Shown here: piece by piece, positions 33,431 through 38,849 of the stretch | Numbering within the stretch: the stretch's first letter is position 1 | How the letters are laid out: each line of letters begins with the position of its first letter | NCBI RefSeq assembly: GCF_000196895.1 | Contig: NC_014297.1 | Coordinates: forward strand, 1,116,001-1,180,000 | Reading direction: 5' to 3' | Length of the DNA: 64,000 bases | From: Halalkalicoccus jeotgali B3 | GTDB lineage: Archaea; Halobacteriota; Halobacteria; Halobacteriales; Halalkalicoccaceae | The notes under the pieces: generated by a model | The model's database searches: none | The model's input: only the letters and a program-made list of their open reading frames with translations | Told to the model about the DNA's origin: nothing | Made by a program: the position numbers and the translations under genes

Positions 33431-34327
33431 ATGGTATCGCTCGCACGCTCGCTTGGTTCCCGCGTGTACGAGAACCTCCTCCTGCGCGAGATCGACGACG
33501 GACCCACCCACGTCGCCGTCATCCAGGACGGCAACCGTCGGTACGCCCGCAAACAGGGCACCGAAACCTCCGACGGGCACCGTGCCGGCGCACAGACCAC
33601 CGAACGGGTGCTCAACTGGTGTGAGGAACTCGGCATCGAGGAACTCACCCTGTATGCCTTCTCGACGGAGAACTTGGAACGTCCCCCCGACGAGCGAGAG
33701 GCGATCTACGGCCTGCTGTGTGAGAAACTCCGAGAGTTCGCCGACGCCGACCGGGTCCACGACGGCGGCGTACGGATCCGCGCGCTCGGGAACCTCTCGC
33801 TGCTTCCCGAACGGGTGCAGGAGGCCGCCCGGTACGCTGAGCGACGGACCCGGGAGTACGACACCTTCGTGCTCAACATCGCGCTTGCCTACGGCGGCCG
33901 GGCCGAACTGTTGGGGGTCGCTCGCGACGTCGCCCGGGCGGTCGAGACCAGCGATCTGCGCCCACGCGAGATCGACGCCGACGAGATCGACCGGCGACTG
34001 TACGACGACGAACTCCGGGACGTCGACCTGATCATCCGCACCGGCGGGGACGAACGTACCTCGAACTTCCTGCCGTGGCACGCCAACGGCAACGAGGCTG
34101 CGGTCTTCTTCTGTGCGCCCTACTGGCCGGAGTTCTCGAAGGTCGACTTCCTCCGAGCCGTTCGGACCTACCAACACCGCGAGGCCTCCTGGCAGCGCAC
34201 GCGAACCCGGCGCGCGATGGCGCTCGTGGGCGCGCTCTCGGACGTCGATCTGCCGAAGGCACGGGACGTCCTCGACGGCGAGAGCGAACCCGCTACCCGG
34301 GAGACCCCTGTGCCGATCGAACGATAG
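33431..34327 (+). CDS. uppS: cis-Prenyltransferase, catalytic-type subunit (UppS family)
   Basis: A 298-residue cis-prenyltransferase that elongates allylic diphosphates with IPP, probably toward dolichol-type lipid carriers for glycosylation. The catalytic Asp is D33 in QDGNRR, followed by the FSTENLERP block and the IPP-binding RTGGDERTSNFLPW. It lacks the C-terminal RRFGG motif of homodimeric enzymes (its tail is TRTRRAMALVGALSDV). A second homologue with the opposite defects lies at 36822-37430. ATG 33431; a TATA-like TGTATC lies 27 nt upstream. Confidence 0.92.
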   Translation: MVSLARSLGSRVYENLLLREIDDGPTHVAVIQDGNRRYARKQGTETSDGHRAGAQTTERVLNWCEELGIEELTLYAFSTENLERPPDEREAIYGLLCEKLREFADADRVHDGGVRIRALGNLSLLPERVQEAARYAERRTREYDTFVLNIALAYGGRAELLGVARDVARAVETSDLRPREIDADEIDRRLYDDELRDVDLIIRTGGDERTSNFLPWHANGNEAAVFFCAPYWPEFSKVDFLRAVRTYQHREASWQRTRTRRAMALVGALSDVDLPKARDVLDGESEPATRETPVPIER

Positions 34328-34377
34328 TCGCCCGAGTTCGACCCGAACGCTATTGTTACTGGCTGCGTATTGATAGC

Positions 34378-35226
34378 ATGGTACATTCGTTCGACGACCG
34401 CGATCGGGACGGATCGGACGGTCCGTCGGGACGGCCGCCGGCGACCGAGGACGTCGCCTTTCTCACTCGGTCACAACACCGAACCGTCGTTCTCGACGCG
34501 CTTGCCGACCGCCCGCGGGATCGGCGCGACCTTCGGACGCTGGCCGGGGTGTCGGCCTCGACGATCTGTCGGACTCTACGTGAGTTCGAGACGCGGTGCT
34601 GGATCCGCAAGGACGGCCACCGCTACGAGGCGACCCAGTTGGGTGCGTTCGTCGCCAGGGGGACCGTCGAACTGATCGACCGGATCGAAACGGAGCGACG
34701 GCTGCGGGACGTCTGGCCGCTGCTCGCCATCAGGGAGGGCGACCTCGGTATCGGCGCGCTCTCCGATGCGGTCGTGACCGTCGCCGCGGCCGACGACCCC
34801 TACCGGCCGGTCAATCGGTTCGTCTCGCTGCTCCGAGAGACCGAACGGTTTCGCTTCGCCGGTCCCGAACTCGCGCTGCTCGAACCCTGCCGGGACGAGC
34901 TCCGGCGACGGATCCTCGACGGGATGACCACGGAGATCGTCGACCCGCCCGGCGGCGCCGACCGCATCCTCTCGACGTACCCTGACCACTGTGCGGCTCC
35001 CCTCGAAAGCGGCAATCTCACGGTCTTCGTATGTGAGGACCTGCCGACCTACGGGCTCTGTCTCCTCGACGACCGGGTCGGGATCAGCGGTTACGATCCC
35101 GACAGCGGCACGGTCCGGGCCCTGATCGACACCGACGCGCCCGCGGTCCGCGAGTGGGCCGAATCGACCTACGAGACCCACCGCCGGAAGGCGCGGCCGC
35201 TCGTCCCCGAAACCGCCGTCCCGTAA
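34378..35226 (+). CDS. Winged-helix regulator with FilR1-type domain
   Basis: A 282-residue haloarchaeal regulator. Residues about 30-95 form a winged helix (SQHRTVVLDALADRPRDRRDL, ASTICRTLREFETRCWIRK); the C-terminal half (about 130-265) resembles the FilR1/methanogen-regulator domain (LTVFVCEDLPTYGLCLLDDRVGISGYD). Target genes are not known; the DUF1326-DUF2182 pair begins 118 nt downstream and is a natural candidate. Start ATG 34378 (MVHSFDD); the open frame upstream overlaps uppS in another frame. Confidence 0.8.
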   Translation: MVHSFDDRDRDGSDGPSGRPPATEDVAFLTRSQHRTVVLDALADRPRDRRDLRTLAGVSASTICRTLREFETRCWIRKDGHRYEATQLGAFVARGTVELIDRIETERRLRDVWPLLAIREGDLGIGALSDAVVTVAAADDPYRPVNRFVSLLRETERFRFAGPELALLEPCRDELRRRILDGMTTEIVDPPGGADRILSTYPDHCAAPLESGNLTVFVCEDLPTYGLCLLDDRVGISGYDPDSGTVRALIDTDAPAVREWAESTYETHRRKARPLVPETAVP

Positions 35227-35288
35227 CGGCTCGACTCCTTCGGGGCCGGCGATCCCTTTCACCGACTGCAATCCGATCACGTCCTCCC

Positions 35289-35297
35289 ACTATATCA
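35289..35297 (+). promoter_or_regulatory. TATA box for the DUF1326-DUF2182 pair
   Basis: ACTATATCA would start transcription near 35320, leaving a leader of about 25 nt that carries the SD GGAGGT (35336-35341) 3 nt before ATG 35345. A leadered gene is a minority type here. Confidence 0.5.
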
Positions 35298-35344
35298 CTA
35301 GTTGCCTACAATACCCGCGCGTCCGTACCTCGACCGGAGGTACC

Positions 35345-35962
35345 ATGTCAGTAGATAACACGAATCAATGGAGCGTCCGAGGGGAGTTCGCCGAGGCCTG
35401 CAACTGCTCGGCCCCGTGTCAGTGTCTCTACGGCGAGGCGCCCGACGACGACGAGTGTACCGGGGCCCTGTTCTGGCACGTCGAGGAGGGCGAGTACGAC
35501 GGGGCCGAACTGGACGGGCTCACGGTCGGCGTCCTCCTCTACGACGAGGGGATCCTCTTCGAGGGGGACTGGAGGGTCGTCTTCCTCCTCGACGACCGGG
35601 CGGACGAGGCGCAGGCGGCAGCCCTCGAGGCGGTCTTTACGGGACAGGCCGGCGGGGTCATGGGTGCGGTCGCCGAACTGGTCGGCGACGTGCGGGCGGT
35701 CGAGACCGTCCCGATCGCCTACTCGAGGGATGAGGACCACGTCTCGATCGCGGCAGGCGAGGTCGCGGCGGTCGAGGCCGACCTCATCGAGGGGTTCGGC
35801 GAGGTTCCCGGCGAGGTGTCCCCGCATCCGGTCACCGCACCGTCGATGGCGGTGACCACCGGAAAGTCCGCCACGGCGACCGTCTCGTACGACGAGGAGT
35901 TCTCGTGGGACGTCTCGGGGAACAACGCCTTCCTGGGCGAGTTCGAGTACGAAGGCGAGTAG
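35345..35962 (+). CDS. DUF1326 protein
   Basis: A 205-residue DUF1326 family protein. The signature is the N-terminal cysteine cluster EACNCSAPCQC with C19, C21, C25 and C27, a likely metal-binding site, followed by TGALFWHVEEGEYDG. The rest is a beta-rich domain with no known activity. It is followed 12 nt later by a DUF2182 membrane protein, a gene pair also seen in bacteria, so the two probably act together. Confidence 0.85.
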   Translation: MSVDNTNQWSVRGEFAEACNCSAPCQCLYGEAPDDDECTGALFWHVEEGEYDGAELDGLTVGVLLYDEGILFEGDWRVVFLLDDRADEAQAAALEAVFTGQAGGVMGAVAELVGDVRAVETVPIAYSRDEDHVSIAAGEVAAVEADLIEGFGEVPGEVSPHPVTAPSMAVTTGKSATATVSYDEEFSWDVSGNNAFLGEFEYEGE

Positions 35963-35974
35963 ACCGGAACCGCC

Positions 35975-36787
35975 ATGTCCACACACGAACTGCGCGATCG
36001 CATCGATCTCAGCCGCCTCCCGCTGGTCGCGCTGTCGGCGTACCTGCTCTCGCTGCTCGCGTGGGTCGCGCTCGTCGGCCGGTGGCTCCCGATGCCGGGC
36101 GGGGAAGCGGGCCACGGCGGTTCGGCGGGGGCGACGATGGCCGACCCCGGCGTGCCGGAGGCGATGGCACTGTCGAGCGGGTTCTCGGGTATCGCGCTCT
36201 ACTTGCTCATGTGGGGCGTGATGATGATCGCGATGATGTACCCCTCGACGGTGCCGCTGTTCCGGCTGTACGGCGGCGCGCTCCGGGACGCGACGGGGCC
36301 CGAACGCGCGGCCCGTCTCGGTGCGTTCATGGGAACGTACGCGCTCGCGTGGGCGCTCACGGGTGCGGTGCCGCTGGCGGTGAACCGCTACCTCCCGATC
36401 GCCGCCCTCGCCGAGGGCCACGGTGCGCTCTTCGTCGGCGGGTCGCTGCTGGTGCTGGCGGCCTACCAGCTCTCGCCGTACAAGCGTCGCTGTCTGGAGT
36501 ACTGCCGATCGCCGCTGGGTTTTCTGACCGAGCACTACCGTCCCGGCGTTCGGGGCGCGATCGGCCTGAGCGCGCGCTTCAGCGCCCTCTGTATCGGCTG
36601 CTGTTGGGCGCTGATGGGGCTCATGGTGGTCGTCGGTTCGATGAACCTGCTGTGGATGGGCGCGATCACGCTCGTCGTCTCGCTCGAACGGCTGGTCCCG
36701 TGGGGCGACCGGCTGGCGACGGGGGTCGGTGTCGTCGCCGGCATCGCGGGCGTCGGACTCGTCGCGAGTTGGCTACTCGTCGGTTGA
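35975..36787 (+). CDS. DUF2182 membrane protein (predicted metal-binding)
   Basis: A 270-residue integral membrane protein with about six helices. It carries a Met cluster in a helix (MMIAMMYPS at 83-91), a cytoplasmic-type loop SPYKRRCLEYCRSPLGF, and CIGCCWALMGLM, giving several possible metal-binding thiols and thioethers, as expected for DUF2182. Residues 40-55 also contain MPGGEAGHGGS-type His. Soft-metal transport or insertion is suggested but unproven. Second gene of the DUF1326 pair. Confidence 0.85.
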   Translation: MSTHELRDRIDLSRLPLVALSAYLLSLLAWVALVGRWLPMPGGEAGHGGSAGATMADPGVPEAMALSSGFSGIALYLLMWGVMMIAMMYPSTVPLFRLYGGALRDATGPERAARLGAFMGTYALAWALTGAVPLAVNRYLPIAALAEGHGALFVGGSLLVLAAYQLSPYKRRCLEYCRSPLGFLTEHYRPGVRGAIGLSARFSALCIGCCWALMGLMVVVGSMNLLWMGAITLVVSLERLVPWGDRLATGVGVVAGIAGVGLVASWLLVG

Positions 36788-36821
36788 TAGCCGACGCCGG
36801 GCTCGCCCCTCGTGCTTCGGC

Positions 36822-37430
36822 CTACCGGCCGAACCGCCGGCTTCGTTTCTTGTAGTCGAGCACGGCTCTGAGGTAGTCGCGTTTGCGAAAGTCCCGCCAA
36901 TTGACGTCCGTGAAGTACAGTTCCGCGTAGACCGACTGCCAGATCATGAAATCGGAGAGACGCTCGGCCCCGGTCTTGATCAACAGATCGGGTTCGTCGG
37001 GAAAGACCAGTTGGGATTCGATGTCCGCATCGCGGATCCCGTCGGGGTCGCGCTCGCCGCGTTCGACCTCGTGGGCGAGTCCGCGCACCGCGCGGGTGAA
37101 CTCGCGTTTTCCCCCGAGTCCGATCCCGACGCTGATCGGGGCGTCGACCCGTCGGGTGTCGTCGGGTCCGCGGACGTCGACCGCCCGGGGAGCGTCGATT
37201 TCGGCGAGTTCGCTCGCGAGGGTGGGTGCGGCCGCCGGGTCCAATACGCTCACATAGACGGTCACGCGGTCGGCCTCGTACTCGAAGGCCCACCGGAGGA
37301 CGTCCTCGAGGGTCTCGTAGGCCCCTCGTTCGAGGAGGTCACGTTCGGTGATCACGATGGCGACGTGGCTCGGGGACGCCCCGTCGTGGCGTCGAACGCG
37401 GGCGGCGAGATACCGGTCGTACAGACCCAC
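36822..37430 (-). CDS. cis-Prenyltransferase homologue lacking catalytic Asp (NgBR-like subunit)
   Basis: A 202-residue UppS-family protein. At the DGNRR position it has HVAIVITERD, so Thr28 replaces the catalytic Asp; it still has a LLIKTGAERLSDFMIW block, ELYFTDVNWRDF, and ends in RRFGR, retaining the C-terminal RxG motif. This combination resembles the accessory subunits of heteromeric cis-prenyltransferases. I take GTG 37430 (MGLYDRYLAARVRR) because family members start so; the frame is open to 37484. It is divergent from the DUF92 gene. Confidence 0.82.
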   Translation of the reverse strand: MGLYDRYLAARVRRHDGASPSHVAIVITERDLLERGAYETLEDVLRWAFEYEADRVTVYVSVLDPAAAPTLASELAEIDAPRAVDVRGPDDTRRVDAPISVGIGLGGKREFTRAVRGLAHEVERGERDPDGIRDADIESQLVFPDEPDLLIKTGAERLSDFMIWQSVYAELYFTDVNWRDFRKRDYLRAVLDYKKRSRRFGR

Positions 37431-37508
37431 ACGCCATCTCTCGCCGGCGGCCCCGTAAGCCTCACGACCCCGCTTTGTGAGCACCTCGGGGATCGCCCCA
37501 CATCCGAT

Positions 37509-37541: not shown

Positions 37542-38849
37542 GTGACCGGCGAAGTCCGGCGTGCGGGTGCGTTCGCGCTCGTGGGTAGCCTCTCGCTCGC
37601 CGCACCGTTTCTCGGCCCCGCCGCGTTCGTCCCCTTTGCCGCGGTCGGCCTGCTTGCCGCACTCGTCATCGACGGCGGGCCCGTCTTCGACCTCTTTGCG
37701 CGTCCCGGCGACCGCGAGGACAACACGCTCTACGGGCTGGCGGGCTTTTCGCTCGCCGCGACCGGCCTCGCGTTGTTGGTGATCGTCGGCTTTCCCCCCG
37801 AACTGTTCGCCGGCACGGTCTGTCTGCTCGCCGGCGGCAACCTCCTCCAGCAGGTAGTCATAGCCCGCCGGAGCGGGGATATGGCTCCCGCCGCCGGCTT
37901 CGTCGCCGGCGGTTTCCTCGCCGGGACCGCCGCCCAGTTGCTCGTCACGCCCGTCTCGCTTTCGGTCGCGCCGGCCTCGGCGGCGTTTCTCGCGGCCTGC
38001 GGTGCGCTCATCGCCTCGCTGCTCCGGAGCGTTCTCTACGAGCGCGACGACCCCCTCGTGTTGCTGAGCGTGGGGCTCGTGTTGTGGGTGATCGCGGATC
38101 TCGGCGTCGAGACCACGCCGGTCGAGATCGCCGCCGCCATCGCCGTGACGGCGCTTTTAGGCTACGTCTCCTATGCGCTGGGGACGGCCTCGATCCCGGG
38201 GATGGTCACCGGGATGTTGCTCGCGCTCGTCACGATCGTCCTCGGGGGCTACGGCTGGTTCGTCCTGTTGATCGCGTTTTTCGCCATCGGCGGGCTCTCC
38301 TCGAAGTTCCGATACGAGAGAAAGCGATCCCGTGGGGTCGCCGAGGACAACGACGGCGCACGGGGCAGCGGCAACGTCCTCGGTAATTCGGCGGTCGCGC
38401 TCGTCGCCGTGTTGGGCTATGCCGCCACGCCCGATCCGCTTTCGGTCGCGCCGGGCGTCTTCTTTTTCGCCTTCGCGGGTGCGGTCGCGACGGCGATGGC
38501 AGACACCCTTTCGAGCGAGATCGGTGGCGTCTACGACACCCCCCGGCTCGTCACCACCGGCGAGCGCGTTCCACCCGGAACCGACGGCGCGATCACGTGG
38601 CAGGGCGAACTCGCCGGGATCGCGGGCGCGCTCGCGGTCGCGGGGCCCACACTCGTGCTCTTCGAAACGATCACCCTGTCGGGGGCGGTGCTGATCGCAC
38701 TCGGCGGCGTCGCGGGTATGACCGCCGACAGTCTGCTGGGTGCGACCGTCGAGAACCGCTGGCTCGACAATCAGGGCGTGAACTTCCTCGCGACGCTGGC
38801 CGGAGCGCTGGCGGCGGTCGCGCTGGCGGCGCTCGCGGGCCTGTTCTGA
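37542..38849 (+). CDS. DUF92-family membrane protein
   Basis: A 435-residue protein with 10 or more membrane helices; residues about 250-430 form the DUF92 core (GGLSSKFRYERKR, NVLGNSAVALVAVLGYA, ADTLSSEIGGVYDTPRL, GMTADSLLGATVENRWLDNQGVNFLA). Plant VTE6, a DUF92 protein, is a phytyl-phosphate kinase, so a prenyl-phosphate kinase role is plausible. The neighbouring divergent cis-prenyltransferase subunit fits isoprenoid phosphate metabolism. Activity is inferred only. GTG start chosen from TATA spacing. Confidence 0.85.
   Translation: MTGEVRRAGAFALVGSLSLAAPFLGPAAFVPFAAVGLLAALVIDGGPVFDLFARPGDREDNTLYGLAGFSLAATGLALLVIVGFPPELFAGTVCLLAGGNLLQQVVIARRSGDMAPAAGFVAGGFLAGTAAQLLVTPVSLSVAPASAAFLAACGALIASLLRSVLYERDDPLVLLSVGLVLWVIADLGVETTPVEIAAAIAVTALLGYVSYALGTASIPGMVTGMLLALVTIVLGGYGWFVLLIAFFAIGGLSSKFRYERKRSRGVAEDNDGARGSGNVLGNSAVALVAVLGYAATPDPLSVAPGVFFFAFAGAVATAMADTLSSEIGGVYDTPRLVTTGERVPPGTDGAITWQGELAGIAGALAVAGPTLVLFETITLSGAVLIALGGVAGMTADSLLGATVENRWLDNQGVNFLATLAGALAAVALAALAGLF

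Follow-up and report, generated by a model that had tools for sequence, protein, structure and literature searches.

A probable two-subunit cis-prenyltransferase in the haloarchaeon Halalkalicoccus jeotgali

Introduction

Methanosarcina mazei has three cis-prenyltransferase paralogues, one of which, MM_0014, is a short-chain enzyme that was characterised on its own (PMC8131916), while MM_0618 and MM_1083 act together as a heteromer with C45–50 products, a result of Emi et al. (2019) that we take from its citation in PMC8131916. In humans the corresponding complex consists of DHDDS, whose active-site residues have been described as two substrate sites, S1 and S2 (PMC7573591), and NgBR (NUS1). 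Reviews present heteromeric cis-prenyltransferases as typically eukaryotic, with chains over C70 (PMC7839719).

Here we analyse two cis-prenyltransferase-like genes of Halalkalicoccus jeotgali B3, found in a window of 64,000 nucleotides (NC_014297.1, positions 1,116,001 to 1,180,000, forward strand; coordinates below count from its first letter). Judged by their sequences and those of their relatives, their products, P0001 and P0002, are very probably the two subunits of one DHDDS/NgBR-like heteromeric cis-prenyltransferase making a dolichol precursor.

Results

Two genes with complementary products

The features considered here are as follows.

33431..34327, plus strand: gene for P0001, predicted catalytic (DHDDS-like) cis-prenyltransferase subunit; 298 aa, ATG start (PF01255, PDB, AF2/Foldseek)
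33527..33529, plus strand: Asp33 codon, equivalent to DHDDS D34 and E. coli UppS D26; Asp in all 91 catalytic-type sequences that cover this position
34193..34324, plus strand: C-terminal extension of P0001 past the domain, without RxG; helical to about residue 282
34378..36787, plus strand: three genes between the subunit genes, for an HVO_A0261/FilR1-type regulator, a DUF1326 protein and a PF09948 protein (domain matches)
36822..37430, minus strand: gene for P0002, predicted non-catalytic (NgBR-like) cis-prenyltransferase subunit; 202 aa, GTG start (PF01255, NUS1 profile match, AF2)
36828..36836, minus strand: codons R199-F200-G201 (RxG), followed by one residue; present in 84/84 partner-type sequences
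37347..37349, minus strand: Thr28 codon, at the catalytic Asp position (alignment of 84 partner-type sequences)
37542..38849, plus strand: gene for a DUF92 (PF01940) membrane protein, divergent neighbour of the P0002 gene (PF01940, E 3.4e-58)

Both subunit frames are open where the initial annotation had placed them, and its spacing of about 2.5 kb on opposite strands is confirmed by a gap of 2,494 bp between two convergent genes, which are the only two PF01255 genes in the H. jeotgali genome. The P0002 orthologues start at the same residue, which supports the start at 37430 and led us to reject the upstream GTG at 37484, from which the protein would have 220 aa. The translations also bear out what had been read from the two proteins, namely that P0001 has Asp33 and no C-terminal motif of the RRFGG type and that P0002 has Thr28 in place of the Asp and ends in RRFGR. 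Neither protein combines the Asp with RxG in one chain.

P0001 matches PF01255 over positions 1–216 of 219 (E 3e-68), the whole domain minus its last three positions, and reads HVAVIQDGNRRYA around Asp33. Among solved structures in the PDB it aligns over the full domain with UppS of E. coli (E 2.7e-45) and with human DHDDS (E 5.7e-42). Its AlphaFold2 model (pLDDT 83), for which human DHDDS (6z1n_A) was the best Foldseek match (E 4.8e-22), adds to the domain a helix at the N terminus and a long one at the C terminus; the C terminus runs about 43 residues beyond the homology and lacks RxG. Nine of the S1/S2 residues of DHDDS (D34, R37, R38, E81, N82, R85, R205, R211 and S213) correspond to D33, R36, R37, E80, N81, R84, R203, R209 and S211 of P0001, which are invariant or nearly so among 93 catalytic-type relatives. 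The sole S1/S2 residue listed in PMC7573591 that the catalytic type does not conserve is DHDDS K84, which is Glu83 in P0001.

P0002 matches PF01255 over positions 116–219 of 219 only (E 2.9e-26). DGN, the arginines that bind FPP and part of the N-terminal half are missing; the sequence reads HVAIVITERD with Thr28 aligned to the catalytic Asp and ends in KKRSRRFGR, and its C-terminal half is retained, with KTG...R/S and Glu170. As a single sequence it matched known enzymes over the C-terminal half only. A profile built from 53 P0002 relatives matched the PDB chain of human NUS1/NgBR (6z1n_B, E 4e-11) and did so colinearly, from profile position 16 through the last residue. The segment SPSHVAIVITE of P0002 corresponds to LPVHMGLVITE of NgBR, with Thr at the Asp position in both. 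The AlphaFold2 model of P0002 (pLDDT 88) has the cis-prenyltransferase fold, and its best Foldseek matches were homodimeric UppS and DHDDS (TM about 0.6–0.73); because Foldseek did not single out NgBR, which was not the top match, the fold alone does not decide whether P0002 is NgBR-like. No hydrophobic span that could serve as a transmembrane anchor was found in P0002, which starts VGLYDRYLAARVRRHDG, or in the extended frame.

The motifs are partitioned across the family

A motif survey of 158 loci yielded 93 distinct catalytic-type and 84 partner-type proteins. DGN was present in 91 of the 93 catalytic-type sequences, the other two ending at the edge of their locus, and in none of the 84 partners, where the residue at the Asp position was T (59), S (9), A (7), K (4), D (2) or G (2). 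Conversely, all 84 partners have [R/K]-x-G at the C terminus, with no more than one residue after it, and catalytic-type proteins lack RxG at the homologous position with a single exception, L138 from another class, which ends in RIRAGE; the loss is thus near-universal rather than absolute. Numbers of this kind (91/93 against 0/84, and 84/84 for the RxG end) argue that the split is not due to chance, and the complementary defects proposed for the H. jeotgali pair recur almost without exception in the 93 and 84 relatives. The C-terminal extension of the catalytic type is short or missing in several other classes, and P0002 is conserved at about 70% identity across its class.

The two genes co-occur

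The initial annotation had made co-occurrence one of the points on which its reading could fail, and co-occurrence is what the genomes show: 291 of 292 genomes of the class (Halobacteria) have at least two PF01255 genes, with exactly two matches in 281, three or four in ten and one in one. The lone exception, G071, is a 120-contig draft with the partner gene only. Elsewhere in the phylum (Halobacteriota), at least two PF01255 genes were found in 110 of 112 sampled genomes of other classes. A BLAST search with P0002 returned matches in 292/292 class genomes; we set it aside as a co-occurrence statistic because it also counts matches to the catalytic paralogue.

In the sample of other classes, two genomes of one family (G298 and G306, family f18), at about 91% completeness, had zero PF01255 matches, reflecting either an assembly gap or the absence of a cis-prenyltransferase.

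The surplus-copy genomes that we examined had mostly gained catalytic genes while keeping a single partner, G194 having two of each. A duplicated catalytic gene beside a single partner fits a shared accessory subunit; yeast, in which Rer2 and Srt1 have a common Nus1, offers a comparison (PMC7839719). Extra catalytic paralogues with one partner were seen at L037, L046, L048–L053 and L058 (genomes G225, G060, G067, G097, G104, G147 and G259). At L054 (G002) a third, distant PF01255 match lies within a 622-aa open frame.

Gene order is conserved

Both positions were available for 74 class genomes, a sample biased to genomes whose matches were listed; the subunit genes lay within 10 kb of each other in 65, convergent in 65/65 and within 1 kb in 42, and were unlinked in the remaining 9. 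Outside the class, 17 genomes gave 12 near pairs, of which 11 were convergent, often within 160 bp. At two loci (L135:1390-2781 and L136:1396-3087) the catalytic and partner frames overlap tail to tail, so the 3′ ends of their transcripts would be mutually antisense.

In a congener (L004:1400-1600) the two stop codons are only 11 bp apart and the three-gene block is absent, from which we attribute the 2.5-kb spacing in H. jeotgali to the three intervening genes. The regulator, DUF1326 and PF09948 genes at 34378–36787 are probably not part of the enzyme, and their block represents either an insertion or a deletion within the genus.

The DUF92 gene, single copy in the H. jeotgali genome, is divergent from the partner gene at 30 of 30 class loci (L003–L032). 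Several other classes have it in this position too, and it is kept at loci with unlinked subunit genes. The same arrangement was observed at L055, L056, L119–L122, L128, L136, L146, L147, L149, L156 and L177–L180. We take VTE6 to belong to the DUF92 (PF01940, VTE6/TMEM19) family, and by this analogy the DUF92 protein may act on polyprenyl phosphates, making it, as a lead, a candidate polyprenyl-phosphate kinase or related enzyme. VTE6 is the plant phytyl-phosphate kinase (PMC5694494).

The pair groups with Methanosarcina proteins

In a phylogenetic tree the catalytic types formed one clade (support 97/81) and the partners another (100/99), each containing an H. jeotgali and a Methanosarcina protein. 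MM_0014 (PDB 7caq), against which P0001 scored E 3.8e-17, fell into a separate clade C. Human NgBR fell to the side of the partners (99/100), but its branch, at 4.3, makes long-branch attraction a possible cause.

A Methanosarcina-type genome (G401) contains an orthologue of MM_0014 (L117, E 6.5e-132), one catalytic-type protein (L104) and one partner-type protein (L129). Because G401 otherwise holds only the MM_0014 orthologue, we assign L104 and L129 as the orthologues of MM_0618 and MM_1083, an assignment by elimination within G401. Relatives of L129 occur in named Methanosarcina and Methanothrix records.

Discussion

The proposal that these genes encode a two-subunit cis-prenyltransferase is supported by the motifs, the co-occurrence, the gene order and the orthology with Methanosarcina. 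The Methanosarcina precedent invoked for it is real (PMC8131916), and both the tree and the elimination make P0001 and P0002 orthologues of MM_0618 and MM_1083. In the mechanism that we envisage, P0001 would hold the active site, with Asp33 binding Mg2+ and, together with Arg36, Arg37 and Arg84, the allylic pyrophosphate, and with Arg203, Arg209 and Ser211 binding isopentenyl pyrophosphate (IPP). P0002, its own active site lost, would pair with P0001, and its C-terminal Arg-Phe-Gly-Arg tail would cross the interface to complete the P0001 active site. The complex would then extend a trans-allylic diphosphate with IPP to a polyprenyl diphosphate of roughly C55–60, which would be converted to dolichyl phosphate, the carrier for N-glycosylation that supplies surface-protein sugars. 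We infer complex formation, insertion of the tail, mutual dependence, and the product and its chain length. Several points run counter to the proposal: Foldseek put homodimeric enzymes and DHDDS ahead of NgBR for the P0002 model, DHDDS K84 is replaced by Glu83, the genes, being convergent, are not in one operon and are unlinked in 9 of 74 class genomes, and paralogy with vertical descent could yield co-occurrence without a complex.

An improbable alternative has P0001 acting as a homodimer whose site is completed by its own C-terminal extension, leaving P0002 as a separate regulator or with some other role. P0001 does have a full domain and a helical extension, the orthologue L138 ends in an RxG-like sequence, and for some plant enzymes restoration of activity in yeast rer2 has been reported when no partner was co-expressed (PMC8904820). 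Yet the extension carries no conserved RxG and dwindles or disappears in several other classes, and the invariable partner RxG, the near-universal co-occurrence and the heteromer reported for the M. mazei orthologues, as cited in PMC8131916, speak against this alternative. The complementary motifs and co-occurrence likewise disfavour two independent homodimers.

Could P0002 itself be an active short cis-prenyltransferase of different specificity? Its retained C-terminal half, with KTG...R/S and Glu170, speaks in favour, but it has neither DGN nor the FPP-site arginines, its N-terminal half is incomplete and PF01255 is matched only from position 116, so we give this reading very little credence. 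Less credible still is that loss of the catalytic Asp marks P0002 as a functionless, decaying, pseudogene-like paralogue, a notion we find next to untenable given about 70% identity across the class, a single clade phylum-wide and an invariant C terminus; the same conservation rules out a truncated or pseudogenised UppS. We thus favour the heteromer of P0001 and P0002.

The split gene pair spans nearly the whole phylum and is apparently ancestral; within this phylum it had previously been shown in a single methanogen only. A broader scenario, in which the split is ancestral to the phylum and was kept convergent alongside the DUF92 kinase-family gene, and in which eukaryotic DHDDS/NgBR comes from the same ancient split instead of an independent origin, seems to us possible but rather doubtful. 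The mechanism itself is known; what appears to be new is the phylum-wide distribution, the conserved convergent pair and the conserved DUF92 neighbour. In the open-access literature searched we found no report of a haloarchaeal heteromeric cis-prenyltransferase and no earlier report of the broad distribution and conserved convergent pair.

If our reading is true, an entire archaeal phylum has the two-subunit form as its rule, and since the dolichols reported from this phylum are about C55–65, subunit splitting is not tied to very long chains. Genetically tractable haloarchaea would then provide a soluble model for the human disease complex, the annotation of the non-catalytic gene as a generic 'undecaprenyl synthase' would be corrected, and DUF92 would be pointed to as a candidate polyprenyl-phosphate enzyme.

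Comparison with known systems

The H. jeotgali pair resembles MM_0618/MM_1083 in combining a DGN subunit without RxG and an RxG subunit without the Asp, in the same two tree clades. It differs in that the sampled Methanosarcinaceae show no linkage of the two genes, while H. jeotgali has them as a linked convergent pair and also lacks the third paralogue, MM_0014, of M. mazei; and whereas the M. mazei product is C45–50, the dolichol phosphate of Haloferax is reported to be C60 (PMC10821996). With human DHDDS/NgBR the pair shares the same division of labour. P0001, like DHDDS, has N- and C-terminal helices outside the domain and keeps the S1/S2 residues, unlike it in K84 alone; P0002 aligns colinearly with NgBR, with VITE at the Asp position in both and an end of RxG plus one residue, but it has no transmembrane anchor and is identical to NgBR at only 33 of 174 aligned positions. 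P0001 is also like the homodimeric UppS of E. coli in its fold and catalytic residues (the E 2.7e-45 match); in UppS, however, Asp26 and RRFGG lie in one chain, and here they are split over two.
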